A stretch of 22,431 nucleotides of DNA from a virus: IMG/VR virus record IMGVR_UViG_3300025771_000214, positions 1 to 22,431 of that record; one strand, written 5' to 3'. Positions 1-12,500 of this stretch are shown in pieces; the stretch's first letter is position 1, and every line of letters starts with the position of its first letter. The notes beneath the pieces were generated by a model. The model was given only the letters and a program-made list of their open reading frames with translations. It was not told the DNA's origin and did not search any database. Position numbers and translations under genes: made by a program.

Positions 1-738
1 CAGGAGTTGCCCTAGCATAGTTAACGGTATAATTAGGTCCTGGTCTTGTCCTAGTATATTGACCATCAGAATAATTAGGACCAGGAGTTGCCCTAGCATA
101 ATTAACCGTATATGCTGGACCAGGACGTGTTCTATTATATTGACCATCACTATAAACCGGTCCTGGAGTTGCCCTAGCATAATTAACCGTATATGATGGA
201 CCTGGTCGTGTTCTATTATATTGACCATCGCTGTAATTAGGACCTGGAGTTGCCCTAGCATAATTAACCGTATATGCTGGACCAGGACGTGCTCTTGCAT
301 ATTGACCATCACTATAAACAGGTCCAGGAGTTGTTCTAGCATAGTTTGCAGCGTAATTAGGACCAGTAACTAATCTAGCAAATTGACCTCTTGTATAATC
401 AGGACCAGGGGTTGTTCTAGCAAAGTTAACAGTATATTGAGGTCCAGTTACTAACCTAGCATATTGACCCCTTTCATATTGAGGACCAGGTGTTGATCTA
501 GCATAGTTAACAGTATATTGAGGTCCAGTTATTAATCTTGCGTATTGACCATCTGAATAATTAGGACCAGGAGTTGCCCTAGCATAGTTAACAGTATATT
601 GAGGTCCAGTTATTAATCTTGCGTATTGACCTCTCTCATATTGAGGTCCAGGAGTTGATCTAGCATAGTTAACAGTATATTGAGGTCCAGTTACTAACCT
701 AGCATATTGACCTCTCTCGTATTGGGGTCCAGGTGTTG
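1..738 (-). repeat. 81-base tandem repeat array encoding 27-residue units
   Basis: Equivalent points of the unit fall at 1, 82, 163, 244, 325, 406, 487, 568, 649 and 730, a constant 81-base spacing with no insertion or deletion. Units are most alike near the left edge: a 31-base stretch is identical at 84-114, 165-195 and 246-276. Inner units read like QYERGQYARLVTGPQYTVNY followed by ARSTPGP; outer units carry SDGQYNRTRPGP instead. The array continues beyond the window. Confidence 0.95.
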
Positions 739-1747
739 TTCTAGCATATTGCCCTGTATACTGTCTAGTAAAAGATCTTCCATAACCAGCCGAGAATATT
801 CTAGTAAATTGTGCTGTATATTGTGCAGTAAATTGTCTATTAAACGATCTTGAGTAATTACCAGAAAATATTCTAGTGAACTGTCTTGCGTATTGTCCAG
901 AATATATTCTAGTAAATGATCTGCTAAAATTACCAGTAAATTGGGTGCTGTATTGAACAGAAGTTATCTCTGCTTGTTGATCAACAATATTATCAGAAAC
1001 TTGTAGCCATGTTCCAGTAACTGGTGCTGTAGCTTGAAATTTATAAGTACCAATTCCTGTAGCTACTATTCTATTTCTAAATCTGGCTGTTAATGTTTCT
1101 AATTCAGAATCTGTCATCTGAATAATTTTTGCAGTTGATCCAGACGCCTCGTATTTAATTGGTCTAATAGTGGTTGGGGCTGTATCTGATGTTTTTCTAT
1201 ATAAATTATAAGTTGTATTAACACCATCAGAAGCAGTTAAAGTGTCAGTAAATGTTGTAATGACCGACCATGTACCACCAACTGGAGCTGTAGAACTAAT
1301 ATAATATTCACCGACTGCACGGCTTGATGTATTAGCTATTTTAGATAATGTGTATGCAATTATAGATGCGTTTAAATCTGTATCGTTTTGCTGTTCTACT
1401 GAACCGGCTACATCGTATTGTAATGGTCTAACTAAACCAGTTTCTGATGCTGATGATAAATTTTGTGAAAATGTTGTTGTTACAGAGTTGGTTGTTCCAA
1501 CTGCAGGGTGTGTACCTATTGATTCAGTTCTTCTTATATCTACAAAACTACCAATGGATGAACCTATACTAATAGTATTTAAATCACCTACAAATGATTG
1601 ACTTGAATTAGCTTCGGTAGCAAACTTAACTAATATTTTATGAGAGATGTAATCCATCTCAGCATTTGACATTTCCTGAAGACCAGTAAAGTTAGTGCTG
1701 TTAGCAGCATTACCACTTGATACTTTTATTTTTAATGGATTTGCCAA
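1..1747 (-). CDS. Tyr/Arg-repeat tail fibre-like protein, partial (3' end outside window)
   Basis: This frame is open from a TTG start to the left edge, giving 582 codons and no stop. I chose TTG because AGAGG lies six bases upstream and the encoded start, MANPLKI, matches the neighbouring paralogue's MNPLKI; the nearby ATG is out of frame and stops after six codons. Residues 1 to about 260 form a globular region with repeated NPLKI/EMS-type and TGTW-type blocks. From about residue 265 the chain is a tyrosine-rich array such as QFTRIFSGNYSRSF, which becomes a strict 27-residue repeat carrying ARATPGPNY, DGQYNR and TVNYAR. It is a paralogue of the gene just upstream in the transcript. From the fibre-gene position and repetitive extended sequence I infer a virion fibre or adhesin. 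I recall similar N-terminal domains in marine cyanophage proteins; no enzyme motif is visible. Confidence 0.8.
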   Translation of the reverse strand, partial: MANPLKIKVSSGNAANSTNFTGLQEMSNAEMDYISHKILVKFATEANSSQSFVGDLNTISIGSSIGSFVDIRRTESIGTHPAVGTTNSVTTTFSQNLSSASETGLVRPLQYDVAGSVEQQNDTDLNASIIAYTLSKIANTSSRAVGEYYISSTAPVGGTWSVITTFTDTLTASDGVNTTYNLYRKTSDTAPTTIRPIKYEASGSTAKIIQMTDSELETLTARFRNRIVATGIGTYKFQATAPVTGTWLQVSDNIVDQQAEITSVQYSTQFTGNFSRSFTRIYSGQYARQFTRIFSGNYSRSFNRQFTAQYTAQFTRIFSAGYGRSFTRQYTGQYARTTPGPQYERGQYARLVTGPQYTVNYARSTPGPQYERGQYARLITGPQYTVNYARATPGPNYSDGQYARLITGPQYTVNYARSTPGPQYERGQYARLVTGPQYTVNFARTTPGPDYTRGQFARLVTGPNYAANYARTTPGPVYSDGQYARARPGPAYTVNYARATPGPNYSDGQYNRTRPGPSYTVNYARATPGPVYSDGQYNRTRPGPAYTVNYARATPGPNYSDGQYTRTRPGPNYTVNYARATP

Positions 1748-1781: not shown

Positions 1782-4262
1782 TTATGCTACTCTTAACCAC
1801 AATGTTTTTGTGGTTGAAGTGTAGTTTGATGTTACTGTTGCTCCAGTGTATTGATTATCTCTTGATCCATCATAATTAGTAGTGTATTGACCGTCACTAT
1901 AATTAGTTCCAACCACCAATCTACCATATTGACCAGCATATTGTGCTCTAGTAAACTGTCCATCATATTGAGGTCCAGTAACTATTCTAGTAAACTGTCT
2001 TGCAAATTGCTCACCTCTTAAAAATTCAACACTATAATTTCCAATAAAATTTCTAGTAAACTGGGGTGCATATTGAGGACCGTTTATTATTCTAGTAAAC
2101 TGTCTAGTATATATGCCAGCATACTGCTGTGTAAATATTCTAGTAAATTGTCTTTGATAAGTACCTGAATATATTAATGTATAATTTTCATTATATTGAG
2201 GCCCAGGAACGGTTCTAGTATATTGAGGACCAGTAACAACCCTGCCAAATTGTCTTGTAAATTGAGCTCTTGTATATTGAGGACCAGTTGTTATTCTAGA
2301 AAATTGCCTTGTATATTGAGCATCATAACCAGGCCCTGGAGTTGCTCTTGCATATGTTGGTCCAGGTGTTGATCTACCATATTGTGTTTCATATTGTGGT
2401 CCAGGTGTAATTCTAGTGTATTGTGGACCTGGTGTTGATCTAGCATAGTTAGGTCCTGGTGTTACTCTTGAATATTGAGGTCCTGTAACTAGTCTAGTAT
2501 AATTAACACTAAACTGCTCACCTCTTAAAAATCCTCTATTGTACCCAGGACCGGTATATAATACTCCTGCATATTTTAAATTACCTGAATATTGGATATT
2601 ATAAGCTAATCTGTAATAAGTGCCTCTATAAAACTGAAGGTCAGCACCATCTGGTGGAGGCGTCTTTGTTGGGGCACCAAAATATGTAAAAGCTGAGTAT
2701 GCCGCGGCAATATATGCCGCGCTTATTTCCCTATTAAAATCATACGGACCTAAATTTCTTTCATATTGTGTTGCAAATTGTCTATAATAAGGACCGAAAA
2801 GATATTCTCTGGCATACTGACTAGCATATTGTGTAGAATATGTTCTACCATATTGAGCTGAATAAGTTCTACCATATTGAGCTGAATATATTCTTCCATA
2901 TTGAGCTGAATATATTCTTGTATATTGTACACCGTATTGAGCTGAATATATTCTTGTATATTGAGCTGAATATATTCTAGTGTATTGTGATCTCGTGTAT
3001 TGTACAGAATATTGTGCAGAATATATTCTTGTAAATTGTTGAGCATATTGTGCCCCATCATAACTACCATAATAGACTGGTGAATATTGGGTTGATGGTG
3101 TTTGTCTAGTATATTGAGTACCAGCAAATGTACCACCATCTATTATTCTTGAATAAAGAGGACCGTTATAATCGGGTCCAGTAATTATTCTAGAATATTG
3201 ACCCCTTTCAAATTGACCTTCATACTGTCCACTATACACTCTTTGATATTGCACATTACCAGTGTATTGTGTTCCCACAACACCTCTTTCAAATGATCTT
3301 AAATAAGCTCTAGCAAAATTAACAGCATATTGTCCAGAATAAATTCTTGTGTATTGAGTAATATATTGTCTAGCAAATTGACCTCTTTCATATTGTGCAC
3401 TAAACTGTCTTGTAAATTGTCTTTCAAATTGTCTACCATATGTACCTGCATATGTACCAGTGTATTGAATATTTTGTATTTGAGGGTTTCTATCTGTTGC
3501 TGATCCTCTGGCTACCCAAGTGCCTGAACCAGGTGCTGATGCTTGAAAAACATACTTACCAACACCAGTAGATACTATTCTATTTCTTAATCTAGAAGTT
3601 AAACTTTGTATGTCAGCGGTTGACATTTCTCTTAATCCAAATACAGGATTAGATCTTACCACCTTTAAAGGTAATATTTCTGTAGGTGAATTATCATATG
3701 AAGTTTTTCTCCATAATTTGTAGGTTGTTTTTAATGAATCGTCGCCAGCAGCGTTTGTAACTTCATCATAAAATAAATCTTGGGCTACCCATGTACCAGA
3801 TATAGATGGAGCATTTATACTAACATAATATGATCCAGTACCAGCTGCTGTTGAATTAGCTTTAGCTATATCATCCAAACATAAACCAATAACATCGTTT
3901 ATTTCTGAATCAGTTTGATCTCTTAATTGAAAATTTGTAGCATTACCAGAAAAAGCTCCAGGCTTTATTAATGAAGTTTCTGATGCTGTAGCAACATTTT
4001 GTTTAAAAGTGTAAGTGTCGGTGTTAACTGAACCTGCATAGGGGTGGGTATTAATAGCAGCAGTAGCATAATTATCTTCAAATGTGCCAACTGAAGTACC
4101 TAATGAATCTATATTTAAATCACCAACGTAATCGCCTGAACCAGATTCGGTTGCAAAGTTTATGAGAACAGTTTTAACTGAATAGTCTAAATCAGCATTT
4201 GTAGTAACTTGAACACCGTTACTATAAAGCCCTCCTGATTTAACTATTTTAAGTGGATTCAC
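1782..4262 (-). CDS. Tyr/Arg-repeat tail fibre-like protein, 826 residues
   Basis: This is a complete paralogue of the partial gene downstream. The start is GTG, nine bases after AGGAG, which overlaps the previous gene's TAG stop. Residues 1-265 hold three related blocks, seen as NPLKIV near residue 2, LRDQTDSEI near 113 and LREMSTADI near 210, each of the last two followed by a TWVA motif. Residues 266-510 form a first Tyr/Arg array with QYTRIYSA-like units. Residues 511-545 are a non-repeat linker containing TKTPPPDGAD. Residues 546 to about 800 form a second array richer in TGPQYTR and TPGPQY. The tail ends TTKTLWLRVA. The sequence looks extended and fibrous and lies downstream of the baseplate genes, so a host-contacting fibre is likely. 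No signal peptide, membrane segment or catalytic motif is visible. Confidence 0.85.
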   Translation of the reverse strand: MNPLKIVKSGGLYSNGVQVTTNADLDYSVKTVLINFATESGSGDYVGDLNIDSLGTSVGTFEDNYATAAINTHPYAGSVNTDTYTFKQNVATASETSLIKPGAFSGNATNFQLRDQTDSEINDVIGLCLDDIAKANSTAAGTGSYYVSINAPSISGTWVAQDLFYDEVTNAAGDDSLKTTYKLWRKTSYDNSPTEILPLKVVRSNPVFGLREMSTADIQSLTSRLRNRIVSTGVGKYVFQASAPGSGTWVARGSATDRNPQIQNIQYTGTYAGTYGRQFERQFTRQFSAQYERGQFARQYITQYTRIYSGQYAVNFARAYLRSFERGVVGTQYTGNVQYQRVYSGQYEGQFERGQYSRIITGPDYNGPLYSRIIDGGTFAGTQYTRQTPSTQYSPVYYGSYDGAQYAQQFTRIYSAQYSVQYTRSQYTRIYSAQYTRIYSAQYGVQYTRIYSAQYGRIYSAQYGRTYSAQYGRTYSTQYASQYAREYLFGPYYRQFATQYERNLGPYDFNREISAAYIAAAYSAFTYFGAPTKTPPPDGADLQFYRGTYYRLAYNIQYSGNLKYAGVLYTGPGYNRGFLRGEQFSVNYTRLVTGPQYSRVTPGPNYARSTPGPQYTRITPGPQYETQYGRSTPGPTYARATPGPGYDAQYTRQFSRITTGPQYTRAQFTRQFGRVVTGPQYTRTVPGPQYNENYTLIYSGTYQRQFTRIFTQQYAGIYTRQFTRIINGPQYAPQFTRNFIGNYSVEFLRGEQFARQFTRIVTGPQYDGQFTRAQYAGQYGRLVVGTNYSDGQYTTNYDGSRDNQYTGATVTSNYTSTTKTLWLRVA
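1863..2627 (-). repeat. Second degenerate Tyr/Arg array of the 826-residue protein
   Basis: After the linker the array resumes with TGPQYTR, TPGPQY and RQFTR units in variable spacing. The TGPQY and TPGP modules are the same two that alternate strictly in the neighbour's 27-residue units, so both genes draw on one motif pool. Confidence 0.8.
2815..3000 (-). repeat. 24-base tandem repeats (QYTRIYSA-like, 8 residues)
   Basis: The plus strand repeats ATTGAGCTGAATATATTCT-like units about every 24 bases, with some 12-base phase breaks. They encode QYTRIYSA, QYGRIYSA and QYGRTYSA, so tyrosines recur every four residues. This is the most homogeneous part of the first array. Confidence 0.9.
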
Positions 4263-4274
4263 TTCCTAATTCTC

Positions 4275-7208
4275 CTACGGTGCTGGCCAAGCAACAACTC
4301 CATTAGCGTATAGAACTTGGAATGCAGCACCCCCTTCGTCTTTTAGACTTGAATGTATAGAAAGATCACCTACAACATTAGCTGAGCTACTGAATGTAGA
4401 TGCATCTGATACGGTAATACTATCTTGGAAATTCACATTGCCTTGGAAATCAGCTGTACTATTAAAATCAGCTGCACCTCCAACTTGAATAGTTGATGAT
4501 GCATTTACAAAACCAGTTACAGTGGTGTTACCTGCTGCTAATGTTTTACTGAATGTTGAATTATCAGCTACAGTTATACTATCACTAAATGCGACGTTGC
4601 CACTAAAATTACCTGTTTGACCATAAACAACATATCTTTCATTAACAGCACCTAAAGCTTGTCCGTTACTTGTAGGTTTAATACCACCACCAGATGTAAC
4701 AAGCCCGGTTAAAGATGATGTACCAGTTACAGTTAAAGTGCTTGAAAGATTTAATGTATTACCAGATATAACCCATCTGTTTGTTGTGTTACCTAATGGA
4801 ACTGTATTACCGTTTGGTATAAAACCAACTGTAGAATTACCTACCGGTGAATATACAAATAAATTTTCAATACCAGAACCATCACCAATAGTAGTTTGTC
4901 CATCTAAAGTAGCATTTGATGAAACTGATAAAGTTGTCATCGTTGCAACGTTTAATGATAATGCATTATTAGATGCAAGAGATGTTGTCCCTTGTACTTC
5001 TAAATCACCGACAATAGTAACATTATTACTAAATGTTGTGTTAGGTGATGCGGTCATTCCAGTATCAGTAATATATAATTCTCCTGATACTAAGTTTGCA
5101 GTAGCACCTGTATGTTTTAATGCAGATGTAATTGTGTTAACAGTTAAATTACCTGTTATATCTGTATTACCTGCTACAGTTAACTTACCACCAAATTGAC
5201 CTGTTGTTGTAGCATTAATAAATCCAGTAACAGTGGTATTACCTGCTGCAAGAGTTTTAGTAAATGTTGAATTATCTGCTACGGTAATTGAATCTTGGAA
5301 ATTAGTATTACCTTGAAAATCTGCAGTGCTATTAAAATCAACTGCACCATTAACCTGTAAAGTGCTTGAAACATTTGCAGTACTTAATGTAGATTTACCA
5401 GTAACATTTAATGTATTAGATAAGGTTGTAGCACCTGTTACTGAAACTGTATTTGCAAAAGTTGATGCAAGAGTAGCACTTATACCACCTGAGAAAGTAC
5501 CACCAACACCTGTAAATGATCCGTCAGTATTAATATCTCCTGAATCGTCAATTATTACGTTAACTGTTGAGTTACCAACTCTTATTTGTCCTGCATTTAT
5601 TTCTACGTTACCAACAACTACATTTGAAGAAATAACTGTATGCCCTGATACATCTAAATTAGCTCCGTTTAACGCTGTATTGCCTGCAACTGTTAATATA
5701 CCATCTAAATCAGCACCACTACTTGTTATAGTTGAATTAACTGTTGAATTACCAACTGCAATTGTTGTGGTATTAATATTAACATTAGCACCAACATTCA
5801 TACCTGATGTTGCATTAGCTACACCTGTAGTAATTAATCCTGCTTTAGCTCTTAATAATCCACCCACATTAGCAGTATTACTTAATAAAGCAGACCCTGT
5901 TACTGATATAGTATTAGAGAATGTAGCTGTATTGGTTACAGCAATAGTATTACTTAATGTAGCTGCTCCAGTAATGGTAACTGTATTGCTAAATGTAGCT
6001 GTATTAGTAACTGATAGTGTATTGCTTAATGTTGCAGCACCGGTTACTGAAATTGTATTTGATAAAGTGGCTGCACCTGTAATAGCTATTGTATTTGAAC
6101 CAACTATTTTTCCTGTTACTGTTGTATTACCAGTAATTGATGCATTACCTGAAACTGTTAATGTATTAGAAGCATTTATATCTTCTGCTTGTAAATCCCA
6201 TCTTGCGTCTGATAATCCTAATGATTTAGCATTAGCAGTTGGTACAATATTTGTATCTATCTCACCATTAATAGAAATAGTGTCTGAATTAGCATTACCT
6301 AAATCTACATCTGAATTAAATACTGCATTACCTGTTACTGTCAGCGTATTTGATACATTTACAGTATTACTATTAATGCTCCAACGGGCGTCAGAGAGAC
6401 CTAACGACAATGCGTTAGAGATAGGGTTAATGCCTGTATCTACTTCAGATACAAATGAAATAGTATCATCGTTTGCTGAACCAAATGTTACGTTTGCATT
6501 AAAAGTTGATTCGTCTGAATCAACTGTAAGTGTGTTTCCTGCTATAGTTGTGTCAGTGGTTGTACCATCGTTGTTAATATCAATAGCTGAAATTGTTGAA
6601 TTTGATTTTAATGTTACATCATTTGCAGTTAATGTAATATTATCATAATCTGATGTTAATGTGGTACCATCCATATCAACAGTTGTTGAATTTATATCTA
6701 ATGTAGTACCTGTAAAATGAACTGCAGTTGAATTAATAGAAACATTGCTTGATGTGCTATTAATATGTACGTTACTTGAAACTTGTAAAAGGGTATTATT
6801 TACGAAAGCATTGGTTGATCGTATATCAATATATGATCCGGTTGTTCTAATTGAATTAACAGTAGAATTAGAAGCAACATTAATTATATTATTTTGTATA
6901 TTTGTGTTTGAAACTATTAATAATGTATTTGAGGCTTGAACATTACCACCTCTCAATCCATTAAATGCAGCAAAAGTATTTGCTTGAATTATACCACCAG
7001 TTGAATTAACCCAAGCTTGGGTGTCTTCATTATAAACATTTGATGTAATAACAACGTTACCAGAAGTTGCACCACCAATCGTATTTTGTTGTGCAGTGAC
7101 AACAATCTCTGACATATCATAAACTAACTGATTAGTTCTTTCTACCCATGCACCAAATGTATCGGTTTGTGTAGCTACGTTAGCGGACTTGTATCTTCTT
7201 TCAGCCAT
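4275..7208 (-). CDS. Tail fibre-like repeat protein, 977 residues
   Basis: The ATG start follows AGGAA and overlaps the preceding gene's TGA by eight bases. Residues 1-50 look like the attachment segment shared by several marine phage fibres (TFGAWVERTNQLVYDMSEIV). The rest is Asn/Ser/Thr-rich short beta repeats: NST-rich segments to about 250, modules ending LGLSDARW at about 268-276 and 329-337, six near-perfect 12-residue repeats (TGAATLSNTISV type) at about 375-446, and two copies of a DSITVADNSTF/LAAGNTTVTGF cassette near the C terminus. The chain ends VLYANGVVAWPAP. Composition and repeats suggest a trimeric beta-structured fibre; the LG...RW modules resemble those of other phage tail fibres and spikes. 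No S74-type peptidase or other chaperone domain is apparent. The receptor cannot be predicted. Confidence 0.8.
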   Translation of the reverse strand: MAERRYKSANVATQTDTFGAWVERTNQLVYDMSEIVVTAQQNTIGGATSGNVVITSNVYNEDTQAWVNSTGGIIQANTFAAFNGLRGGNVQASNTLLIVSNTNIQNNIINVASNSTVNSIRTTGSYIDIRSTNAFVNNTLLQVSSNVHINSTSSNVSINSTAVHFTGTTLDINSTTVDMDGTTLTSDYDNITLTANDVTLKSNSTISAIDINNDGTTTDTTIAGNTLTVDSDESTFNANVTFGSANDDTISFVSEVDTGINPISNALSLGLSDARWSINSNTVNVSNTLTVTGNAVFNSDVDLGNANSDTISINGEIDTNIVPTANAKSLGLSDARWDLQAEDINASNTLTVSGNASITGNTTVTGKIVGSNTIAITGAATLSNTISVTGAATLSNTLSVTNTATFSNTVTITGAATLSNTIAVTNTATFSNTISVTGSALLSNTANVGGLLRAKAGLITTGVANATSGMNVGANVNINTTTIAVGNSTVNSTITSSGADLDGILTVAGNTALNGANLDVSGHTVISSNVVVGNVEINAGQIRVGNSTVNVIIDDSGDINTDGSFTGVGGTFSGGISATLASTFANTVSVTGATTLSNTLNVTGKSTLSTANVSSTLQVNGAVDFNSTADFQGNTNFQDSITVADNSTFTKTLAAGNTTVTGFINATTTGQFGGKLTVAGNTDITGNLTVNTITSALKHTGATANLVSGELYITDTGMTASPNTTFSNNVTIVGDLEVQGTTSLASNNALSLNVATMTTLSVSSNATLDGQTTIGDGSGIENLFVYSPVGNSTVGFIPNGNTVPLGNTTNRWVISGNTLNLSSTLTVTGTSSLTGLVTSGGGIKPTSNGQALGAVNERYVVYGQTGNFSGNVAFSDSITVADNSTFSKTLAAGNTTVTGFVNASSTIQVGGAADFNSTADFQGNVNFQDSITVSDASTFSSSANVVGDLSIHSSLKDEGGAAFQVLYANGVVAWPAP
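5871..6086 (-). repeat. 36-base tandem repeats encoding six 12-residue units
   Basis: Six consecutive units of the form TGAATLSNT plus three residues occupy residues 375-446 of the fibre protein. Each has a small-hydrophobic alternation typical of stacked beta-strands. Units one, two and four carry TGAATLSNT exactly, and three and five share TNTATFSNT, which suggests duplication in pairs. Confidence 0.85.
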
Positions 7209-9510: not shown

Positions 9511-12500
9511 CTATTTTAAGTATTCTCTACCAACGTAAGCTTCTCTAGATCTTCCACCACCGCCACCGGTAATAGCTGACTCTGCTTTAGACCCGGTACC
9601 AGTTGTTGTATTTGCATTAGTTGTAACAACGGTAATATCATTATTAGTATAAGGATAGTATTGATTATTACTGCTATCTTGACCTGCACCTATTGAATCT
9701 GTATTAATATAGTTATGGTAAGTATTATTCCAATAATAGTTCCAAGCATAAGTATTAGTAATATTTATGGTTGAATCTACGTCAATTGTTTGTTCTTTGT
9801 AAGTGTCCTTAGTTGTATTGAAATCAAATGTAGGCTGTCTAGTAGTTAGTGTAACATTTTCTTTTTCAACACTATAATTATATGCGTTATAATTAGCAGA
9901 CGCTGTTGAAGTTGAATCTTCTAAATCAGATAATGAACTTACATCAGCTACTACTAGTTTTCTATCACCAACTAAGAATGTCTCTTTAGGTAAATCAAAT
10001 ATTGCTTGTAATACACCATAACCATCAGAAGAAATTGCATCACCATAATCACCCCCTCTTTGAACATTTTTAGGATTTAATAGTAATGATTGACCACCTG
10101 ATGATGTTACACTATCAGCTGTACCTGGTGCAACATTAGCATTGATATCAGTATTATCAAAAAAGAAATAATGCCGTGTATCTGGTCTCAACCCATAAGC
10201 AATTATTCTAACTCTTTTTGGTCTCATAAATGGAGAGAACGAAACATCAGTGACGAAATCTCCAACTGAAGAAGTAGATTGTTCATACCCCATTGATAAC
10301 TGTTGTGTTGTTTTTAAATATGTGTCTGTAGTTGTTGTTGTGGTTGTTGTAATAGCAGTTTCAGTTGTCTTAGAAAGTGAGCCACCATACCAGCCACCCC
10401 ACCAGTCGCCATAATAGTTACCATAATAGCCGTTATAACCTTTATGTGTATAATAATTATATGCGTTATATCCTTTCCATCCCCAATAACCATAGTTATT
10501 AACGTTAGTGTCTGAAGTTACGTCTACTTCAGATTGTACGTCTGTAGATGTACCAATTTTTTCTATATTTGTTCTAGTTAATGGATAAAGTTCATTTAAA
10601 TTATCTAAAAGATCATTCATACCAGTAGAGGTATCTACAAATACATCTTTTGTGCCAACAACGGTTTCATCATACCCTGAATCATATGTTGGATTAAGTT
10701 TTATTTTACCTATAAACTTATAATATGATTCTGTACAAGGTCTATGATTTGTAGCAACACCTTGATCAATAATTAATGATTCTGTTGCTGATAAAGTATA
10801 AGCACCGTCTAATTCAATAACATTATTTGTATTTGCTACTATTAAATCAATACCTTCTTGTTTAAATCTTGGAATAAATTCTGTAGCTGTTGGGTCAATA
10901 CCAATAGAAAACTCTCTATTATTAACATCAGCTGATTTAAAGTCTGTTGCTGGATCAACTAATATACCATTTTTAAATCTATCATTACCATTAGCATCAG
11001 TAATAGCCATATTTTGTGTTTTTTGTTCTAACTGAGATAATGTGGTATAATATTCTATATTTTTTAATCTTTTATCAAGTTTAGCAATTTCTGCCATAGT
11101 ATAACGTCTTGTATTTTCTGGTGTTATAGTTATGGATTCATTTCGTCTTGAAGTTGTTCTTGTTTCTTTTGATGTTAAAGATGGGTAAGGTGGTATTACT
11201 ATTGTACCAATGTTTAATGAATTAGGTATATCTTGAGGTGGTAAAGGTTTAGAACCTGGAGTACCTCTTTTAGTTGTTAAATACCCTTGTTCATTAATTG
11301 CAAGCTTATCAATTCTACCTAGATAGTATTCATAATCAGTTGTAAATTGTTTATTAGGAGCTGCTAAAAAGTGTTCTATTGATCCAAATGATTCGATGTT
11401 GCTTGGGTTAATAGTAGCTCCAGCTTCTGTGGTTGAAAAAGCAGCGGTATTAGCAACCTGTGGTCTAATATCATATGCGTTTCTTAAATCTGCAATATAA
11501 CCACTTGGTGATTCGTATACTGGTATATCTTGAGGTTCTAATAAATCAACACCATTTGATTGATAATAACTTGATACTGTATAGAAACCTTTACCGTCTG
11601 AAGGATCATCTGCTTGTAGTACTGACATTTTAACTAATAGCCTATCATTAGCCACTAAAGTTGTAGATGTTTTTAAACTTAATTGGCTTAGTCCATAGTG
11701 TGTATCTTCAGCATTTATCTCTAATTGGAATCCAGATTTATTATCTGTATTAGTATTTGCATATGATTGATTACCTTGATATACTGCATCAACAGATATA
11801 ACATCAGGCATACCTAATGAATAAGGACCGACTATACCACCTGCATTATTAGAGCAATCTATTTTAACATAAACAGTCTTTTTAGTTTTCTTAATTGGTG
11901 TTACGTTAGCTTTTTTCTCATTATGAACAACTCTAAATGCTGATACACCAGAAGATAAATTTGATGATAAAGCTCCAGATAAATCAATAGTTGCTGTACC
12001 ACTAGAAACTGTTATAGTAACTAAATCTGTATCAACCGGTACGTTATTAGCTAAGCCACCGTGTGAAGCACCACCTAAAGTTGGTACAATAATAAATTCT
12101 CTTTTCTGTGAATTAGATAGAGAACCAGAATATGGAAATACTCCAGTTACTGATGAAACAGAAATATGATCATTATTTGCTGCTGTTACTTCTTGTTGTG
12201 TTCTAAAAATAAAGTCTGTTGATGAAGTTGACTTAATTGCTGGTCTAGGAAACTGGAATAGTCCAGTTAATAGAGGGTTTTCTTTTAATACTGCTCTACT
12301 ATTTTCTAATACTGCATCACCAGTACCCTGTCCTGAAATATGTACTGCTTTAACATTTCTAAATGCTTTACCAGCATTCATTCTTATATTAAATAAATAT
12401 AATTTGTATTGAGCTGATGATTGTCCTGGTACACCATCATGATATTCAAATCCTCTAACATGAGCTTTACCAATTTCTGTTCCAGGGGCTACAGATAAGT

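Follow-up and report, generated by a model that had tools for sequence, protein, structure and literature searches.

A tyrosine- and arginine-rich repeat protein of a T4-like phage is probably a tail fibre folded as an equal-armed hairpin

The 826-residue protein encoded at positions 1782-4262 (minus strand) of a 22,431-base virus fragment contains a long array of tyrosine and arginine that almost certainly leaves a single base domain and returns to it, so that both chain ends lie in the base and the tip lies in the middle of the chain. By analogy, the array protein is probably a phage tail fibre. We consider it likely that the whole describes a tail-associated fibre, built as an equal-armed antiparallel hairpin, with a three-module base on the tail. 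The topology rests on two independent computations: the predicted structure of the two chain ends, and the arm lengths and positions of breaks in the array across relatives.

The array gene and its neighborhood

The fragment, hereafter the window (the whole stretch of DNA analyzed), has a GC content of about 33%. Its minus strand harbors gp25-, gp6-, gp7- and gp8-like baseplate wedge genes and large tail proteins, as well as a small virion structural protein, a 977-residue tail-fibre-like protein, the array protein and a truncated paralog of the latter. The gp6 homologue is 34-38% identical to counterparts in Caulobacter, Sinorhizobium, Pelagibacter and Stenotrophomonas phages and about equally distant from all, and the virus is, therefore, taken to be a T4-like phage. 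The start codon of the array gene is GTG, closely preceded by an AGGAGA-type site, and the gene sits directly after the baseplate wedge and tail-fibre-like genes. As context, its upstream neighbor (4275..7208, minus strand) encodes the 977-residue protein, which is rich in N, T and S and weakly matches the tail fiber protein phrog_25747 (E 0.0016); large tail-type genes are also found upstream of the array gene in several relatives. The paralogous gene (2..1747, minus strand) encodes a base domain and an array of the same type, with an N-terminal region 42% identical to that of the 826-residue protein; 582 residues are visible before the window edge cuts it short of the tip. Tandem pairs of array genes are likewise present in L015, L016 and L018. 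Elsewhere in the window (10375-10494, minus strand), a very aromatic patch, YGYWGWKGYNAYNYYTHKGYNGYYGNYYGDWWGGWYGG, lies within a 1,405-residue DUF4815 tail protein.

The original prediction had drawn attention to positions 1863-3467, equivalent to residues 266-800, as a region with aromatic residues at four-residue spacing and arginine in between, and both properties are borne out. Between residues 266 and 815 there are 65 lag-4 pairs of aromatic residues (Y/F/W), compared with 22.4±3.8 in composition-preserving shuffles (n = 2,000, maximum 36). Consecutive aromatics are exactly four residues apart in 62 of 111 cases, the next most common spacings being nine (17) and five (12). The nine-residue spacing corresponds to Y-x-R-x-x-P-G-P-x-Y and the five-residue spacing to Y-E-R-G-Q-F, both of which interrupt the four-residue rhythm. 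The residues most commonly following an aromatic are T, S or A at +1, R at +2 and Q at +3, and the array as a whole contains 82 Y, 29 F and 53 R, with only 2 K and no H. Beyond what had been predicted, conserved N- and C-terminal parts flank the array, and a unique segment occupies its midpoint.

A family with a variable array and conserved ends

A profile of the N-terminal region identified 79 IMG/VR loci. Complete members begin with N-terminal modules totalling about 260 residues, continue with an aromatic array and close with a conserved C-terminal pattern, T-x-x-L-W-[LVI]-R-[VTI]-A, which in a cyanophage-like branch reads L-Y-V-R-V-A. The length of the array is very variable, ranging from about 55 to 2,900 residues. 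Among 50,697 phage records the family was found only in Phage C48C1, a search in which low-complexity masking by BLAST may hide others. The C48C1 protein (OQ984149, Kyanoviridae), a 3,347-residue "hypothetical protein", has the same N-terminal modules, aromatic array and downstream gene cassette and ends in YTLYVRVA; it is four times the length of the window protein and carries several globular insertions. The loosely similar Y-T-G arrays of marine cyanophages that the original prediction mentioned are present in this phage.

The window proteins have no match in PHROGs or Pfam (E≤0.01) and none in the PDB (E≤10), and searches with family members returned nothing below 0.07 in PHROGs or below 0.18 in the PDB; the family alignment as query likewise produced nothing usable. 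Scattered Pfam matches in family members (the best being Gly-zipper at 2.9e-4, in 3 of 25 members) look compositional and were rejected, and the collar domain PF07484 was absent among family members in the Pfam search. Foldseek/VIA comparisons with both AF2 models gave low scores only (perforin-2 P2, Z 5.6; T4 gp11, Z 2.4); low-confidence array strands fill the match list of the window model, which renders that list uninformative on the base. Literature on this family was not found among open-licence PMC papers on tyrosine-rich fibres, tetrapeptide-repeat fibres, or glycogenin together with phage. Judged by these sequence searches, this is a real repeat architecture that is undescribed, having no match in Pfam, PHROGs or the PDB. 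This part of the original prediction is supported.

Several other proteins share features of the array. A second kind of tyrosine-array protein, encoded at L009:2423-5989, L044:6558-9986 and L008:1-2343, has no base modules and possesses a Gp38-type glycine-rich adhesin end (PF05268, E 8.8e-13 in L009); its gene immediately precedes the hairpin gene. When the L009 and L044 proteins of this kind were scanned for mirror symmetry, no clear midpoint emerged. A structural protein of Synechococcus phage S-RIM2 (L092:9417-15155) contains an NVTG/TGN tetrapeptide array (NVTGNLTGN) with the same four-residue rhythm, but with aliphatic rather than aromatic residues at the key position, and it has neither the base modules nor an LWxRxA end. 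A match to the tail protein of Aeromonas phage BUCT552 (L012:1-3587) was discarded: that protein ends in a short tandem repeat, PYNLRxxxQAELLA, which is unrelated to the array.

The array is predicted to be inserted into the base domain

Residues 1-248 (3519..4262, minus strand) form a base domain of three tandem modules of about 90 residues, the third of which is incomplete in this part of the chain, as delineated by AF2, HHalign and the 79 loci. The N-terminal modules are mutually homologous in HHalign comparisons (module 2 with module 3, E 8e-16; module 1 with module 2, E 1.5e-7). Modules 1 and 2 each finish in a β-hairpin, the second strand of which resembles TTYLWQKT in module 2. Module 3, by contrast, has only its first hairpin strand before the array, and the missing second strand is supplied by the last strand of the protein. 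The outgoing strand of this hairpin, from which the array departs, comprises residues 249-266 (3465..3518, minus strand; AF2 strand 249-267), and the returning strand that would complete module 3 comprises residues 805-826 (1785..1850, minus strand; AF2 strand 805-824) and ends in the conserved TLWLRVA.

With the family alignment, AF2 models the base domain at a pLDDT of mostly 80-95. The C-terminal strand reaches 86-96 in both a 388-residue relative and the window protein, the last 16 residues of the latter's strand being at 91-95. As read from strand positions and lengths in the models, the C-terminal strand matches the pre-array strand in length, with 231-251 pairing with 365-386 in the relative and 249-267 with 805-824 in the window protein. 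When the C-terminal strand alone was aligned with module 2 by HHalign, the expected residues were matched (ttyLWqKT/tiLWlRt), without significance. The arms themselves have a pLDDT of about 30 as a monomer in both models, and AF2 consequently gives no fold for them. Structure prediction thus indicates that the array is an insertion into module 3 of the base. Because the last strand completes this module, the array starts and ends at one place and would then be an antiparallel hairpin.

Equal arms and a tip at the midpoint

In a hairpin array, the tip has to be the residue equidistant along the chain from two paired base residues. According to the window model, residue 249 should face approximately 824 and residue 267 approximately 805, so that paired residues sum to about 1073. 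This leads to a simple midpoint rule, the position of the module-3 GTW plus the protein length, divided by two, which was derived from the window model (247 + 826) and then applied to relatives. Many relatives carry a short tip motif, Y-x-[LPRI]-[FY]-[YF]-[SAG]-G, which interrupts the four-residue rhythm. In 34 of 35 non-redundant relatives with the motif (348-847 residues), its center is no more than 1.5 residues away from the midpoint given by the rule, against 0.83 relatives expected by chance. Measured from the first aromatic to the last, the two arms have the same length in 25 of the 35, with pairs such as 30/30, 32/32, 48/48, 52/52, 60/60, 78/78, 142/142, 228/228 and 274/274; larger differences vanish, L050 excepted, once the arms are measured in the base register rather than from the automatically assigned start of the array. 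The one relative with its tip motif off the midpoint, by 10 residues, is L050:9749-11230, an offset that might reflect a recent unbalanced indel or an error of assembly.

The window protein is without the short tip motif of these relatives. Its midpoint of 536.5 falls inside the unique segment YFGAPTKTPPPDG. The irregular midpoint segment as a whole, SAFTYFGAPTKTPPPDGADLQF (residues 523-544; 2631..2696, minus strand), is the longest irregular stretch of the array, at a fraction of 0.50, and would be the distal tip. It separates arm 1 (residues 267-522; 2697..3464, minus strand) from arm 2 (residues 545-804; 1851..2630, minus strand), both defined by the lag-4 aromatic excess and the array bounds. 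A 1,506-residue relative in L015 has a similar segment, YFGPPTFFPPPDQDG, at its own midpoint of 871.5. Among the longer or motif-less relatives (up to 3,138 residues), nearly all midpoints lie in or beside a non-array segment, L019 and C48C1 being among a few borderline cases. In a test that does not depend on the rule, 16 of 31 members have their longest irregular stretch at 0.50±0.03 of the array; relative to a uniform position p is 4e-12, a value that is only nominal because the members are related. Equal arms and a midpoint tip are, therefore, shown computationally across the family. The position of the tip speaks for the topology and not for receptor binding.

Mirrored breaks and register between the arms

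In several branches, six-residue steps such as Y-V-G-T-S-A-Y break the rhythm, and the distances of these steps from the base agree between the two arms, often exactly (19, 41, 63 in one arm and 19, 41, 63 in the other; 31, 53 and 31, 53; 215, 249, 283, 314, 340 and 215, 253, 288, 318, 344). L028, L044 and L009 share the same set of breaks, with those of L009 all lying 232 residues further out in both arms, and in related proteins of 540-755 residues the number of breaks climbs from five to eight in both arms together. The agreement does not extend to all proteins: in some members with many six-residue steps these are unmirrored, and in the window protein the five- and nine-residue breaks are not mirrored across the midpoint. 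A search for mirrored breaks in its subgroup found none. In that subgroup (L018, L016, L015), the nine-residue PGP elements tend to oppose plain four-residue stretches of the other arm; their overlap across the midpoint totals 116, where 224 would be expected (p 0.003 for seven related proteins together, the effect being weak in each singly).

In the longest relatives, the antiparallel register of aromatics between the arms is 0.91 at offset 0, over an array of 2,863 residues, and 0.00-0.02 at ±2. The arms would thus face each other aromatic to aromatic, which is consistent with the earlier suggestion that the aromatics occupy one face of a β-strand. The longest arrays are also mirror-symmetric in glutamate and Thr/Asn content, with an E correlation in L009 of 0.73, as opposed to -0.75 in the parallel sense. 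A DNA inversion cannot yield a mirrored order of residues in a protein, and selection on structure would be the simplest cause.

Proposed architecture and its alternatives

Taken together, the proposed architecture is one in which the three N-terminal modules form a base seated on the tail, and the chain exits the β-hairpin of module 3 as arm 1, turns around at its distal end (residues 523-544, approximately), and returns as arm 2, each residue of which pairs with one in arm 1 (i+j about 1073), before its last strand completes module 3. The arms would be in β conformation throughout, with the aromatics at every fourth residue pairing cross-strand along one face and Arg, Thr/Ser and Gln/Asn between them. 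By analogy with T4 gp37, the protein would probably be a trimer, and the tip would reach and bind the host surface. Each arm has about 270 residues; at a rise per residue between 2.3 Å (as in gp37) and 3.3 Å (a strand at full extension), the window protein might have a reach of roughly 60-90 nm, and its longest relatives one of about 330-470 nm.

The needle of T4 gp37 is the closest known parallel. There, D11 forms an insertion in the collar domain D10; residues 882-931 and 960-1009, 50 residues each, make up the stem, the tip (932-959) lies between them and binds LPS and OmpC, and the C-terminus is back in the base (PMC6957217). The rise of this needle is about 150 Å per ~64 residues, as calculated from its length (PMC3004832). 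The array protein resembles it in having an elongated stem inserted in a base that holds both chain ends (here by AF2 prediction), equal arms and a central tip. It differs in its aromatic four-residue rhythm, its base modules appear to be of another kind, and there is no detectable sequence relation. The arms are also far longer, at about 265-270 residues in the window protein and up to about 1,430 in relatives, compared with 50 in gp37. Moreover, gp37 has His-x-His iron sites, whereas the window array has no His; in view of the missing sequence match and histidines, the protein was rejected as a gp37 homologue.

A linear trimeric shaft with the C-terminus as its distal tip is the commonest layout of phage fibres, and the position of the gene after baseplate and tail-fibre genes would suit it. 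Yet a linear shaft would not lead one to expect equal arms and a midpoint segment, and the C-terminal strand is confidently predicted to complete a base module, making this layout extremely improbable. The original proposal of a fibre made from residues 266-826 stands in part: the protein is probably a fibre, but a single linear shaft is not supported, the final ~20 residues being assigned to the base and the array extending outward and returning. A β-solenoid, with each four-residue unit forming one side of a stacked coil, is equally improbable; short regular aromatic repeats often stack inside solenoids, but such a fold needs no equal arms, mirrored breaks or midpoint tip, and AF2 predicted none for the monomer.

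The composition of the array (Y, R, G, Q, N, S) and its pLDDT of about 30 would also suit a disordered loop of Tyr/Arg stickers, tethered at either end, that sticks or condenses without adopting a defined fold. This is very improbable, since residue-exact equality of the arms and mirrored breaks over hundreds of residues would not be selected in disorder. Finally, the out-and-back topology might be correct for a protein that decorates the capsid or neck, or serves as a spacer on the tail, rather than being a receptor-binding fibre, a view favored by the base fold having no clear structural match and by the two paralogs in tandem. The baseplate and tail-fibre-like genes preceding the array gene in the window, and the large tail-type genes upstream in several relatives, argue against such a role, which we regard as unlikely. 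The tail-fibre hairpin remains the preferred reading.

A linked enzyme cassette

Directly downstream of the array genes are three genes in a fixed order (for example, L009:13993-15358 and L036:15030-16856), encoding a protein of about 140-215 residues, then a glycosyltransferase resembling GT8, and finally a 2OG-oxygenase-like protein, a candidate protein-oxidizing enzyme. The cassette follows the array gene in 57 of 57 loci with room downstream, and, in reverse, an array is upstream in 67 of 67 oxygenase-like loci with room (from the 80 closest matches). The window ends before the position of the cassette, and in this phage its genes would lie beyond the edge. The first protein is chaperone-like by its size and place only. 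The glycosyltransferase has an invariant DxD and a best Pfam GT8 match of E 3.5e-6 (2 of 17 members), and the top 17 PDB matches to its family profile are glycogenin-1 chains, all weak (best E 0.023). The oxygenase-like protein, for which Pfam and the PDB gave no match, has invariant W-H-x-N, H and R-x-T motifs, with Asn replacing the acid of HxD/E...H...RxS/T. Among the phage records, relatives of both enzymes occur in C48C1, in addition to one weak oxygenase-like match.

Glycogenin glucosylates its own tyrosine; the resemblance to glycogenin (GT8) concerns the linked glycosyltransferase only, through the PDB matches and the DxD. The linkage of GT8-like and oxygenase-like genes makes modification of the array plausible, and in most of the family the array is perhaps modified by the putative glycosyltransferase and the oxygenase-like enzyme. 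A more far-reaching version, which is possible although doubtful, is that these proteins constitute a new class of fibre with a hairpin stem of cross-strand tyrosine ladders, hundreds of nanometres long in the longest relatives, in which a dedicated glycogenin-like enzyme would glycosylate Tyr or neighboring residues and the oxygenase of the same operon would hydroxylate them, yielding a sugar-coated fibre of tunable length.

Implications

What had been a puzzling low-complexity repeat becomes a precise architecture, in which the topology of the chain can be read from sequence because the arms stay equal to the residue. Ignoring the C-terminal strand would lead to misannotation of the whole family. 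The out-and-back needle of T4 gp37 is extended here by more than one order of magnitude in arm length, and fibre length may evolve by matched changes in both arms, as in the 232 residues added to each arm in L009. The strictly linked enzyme cassette further suggests that aquatic phages carry modified fibres.
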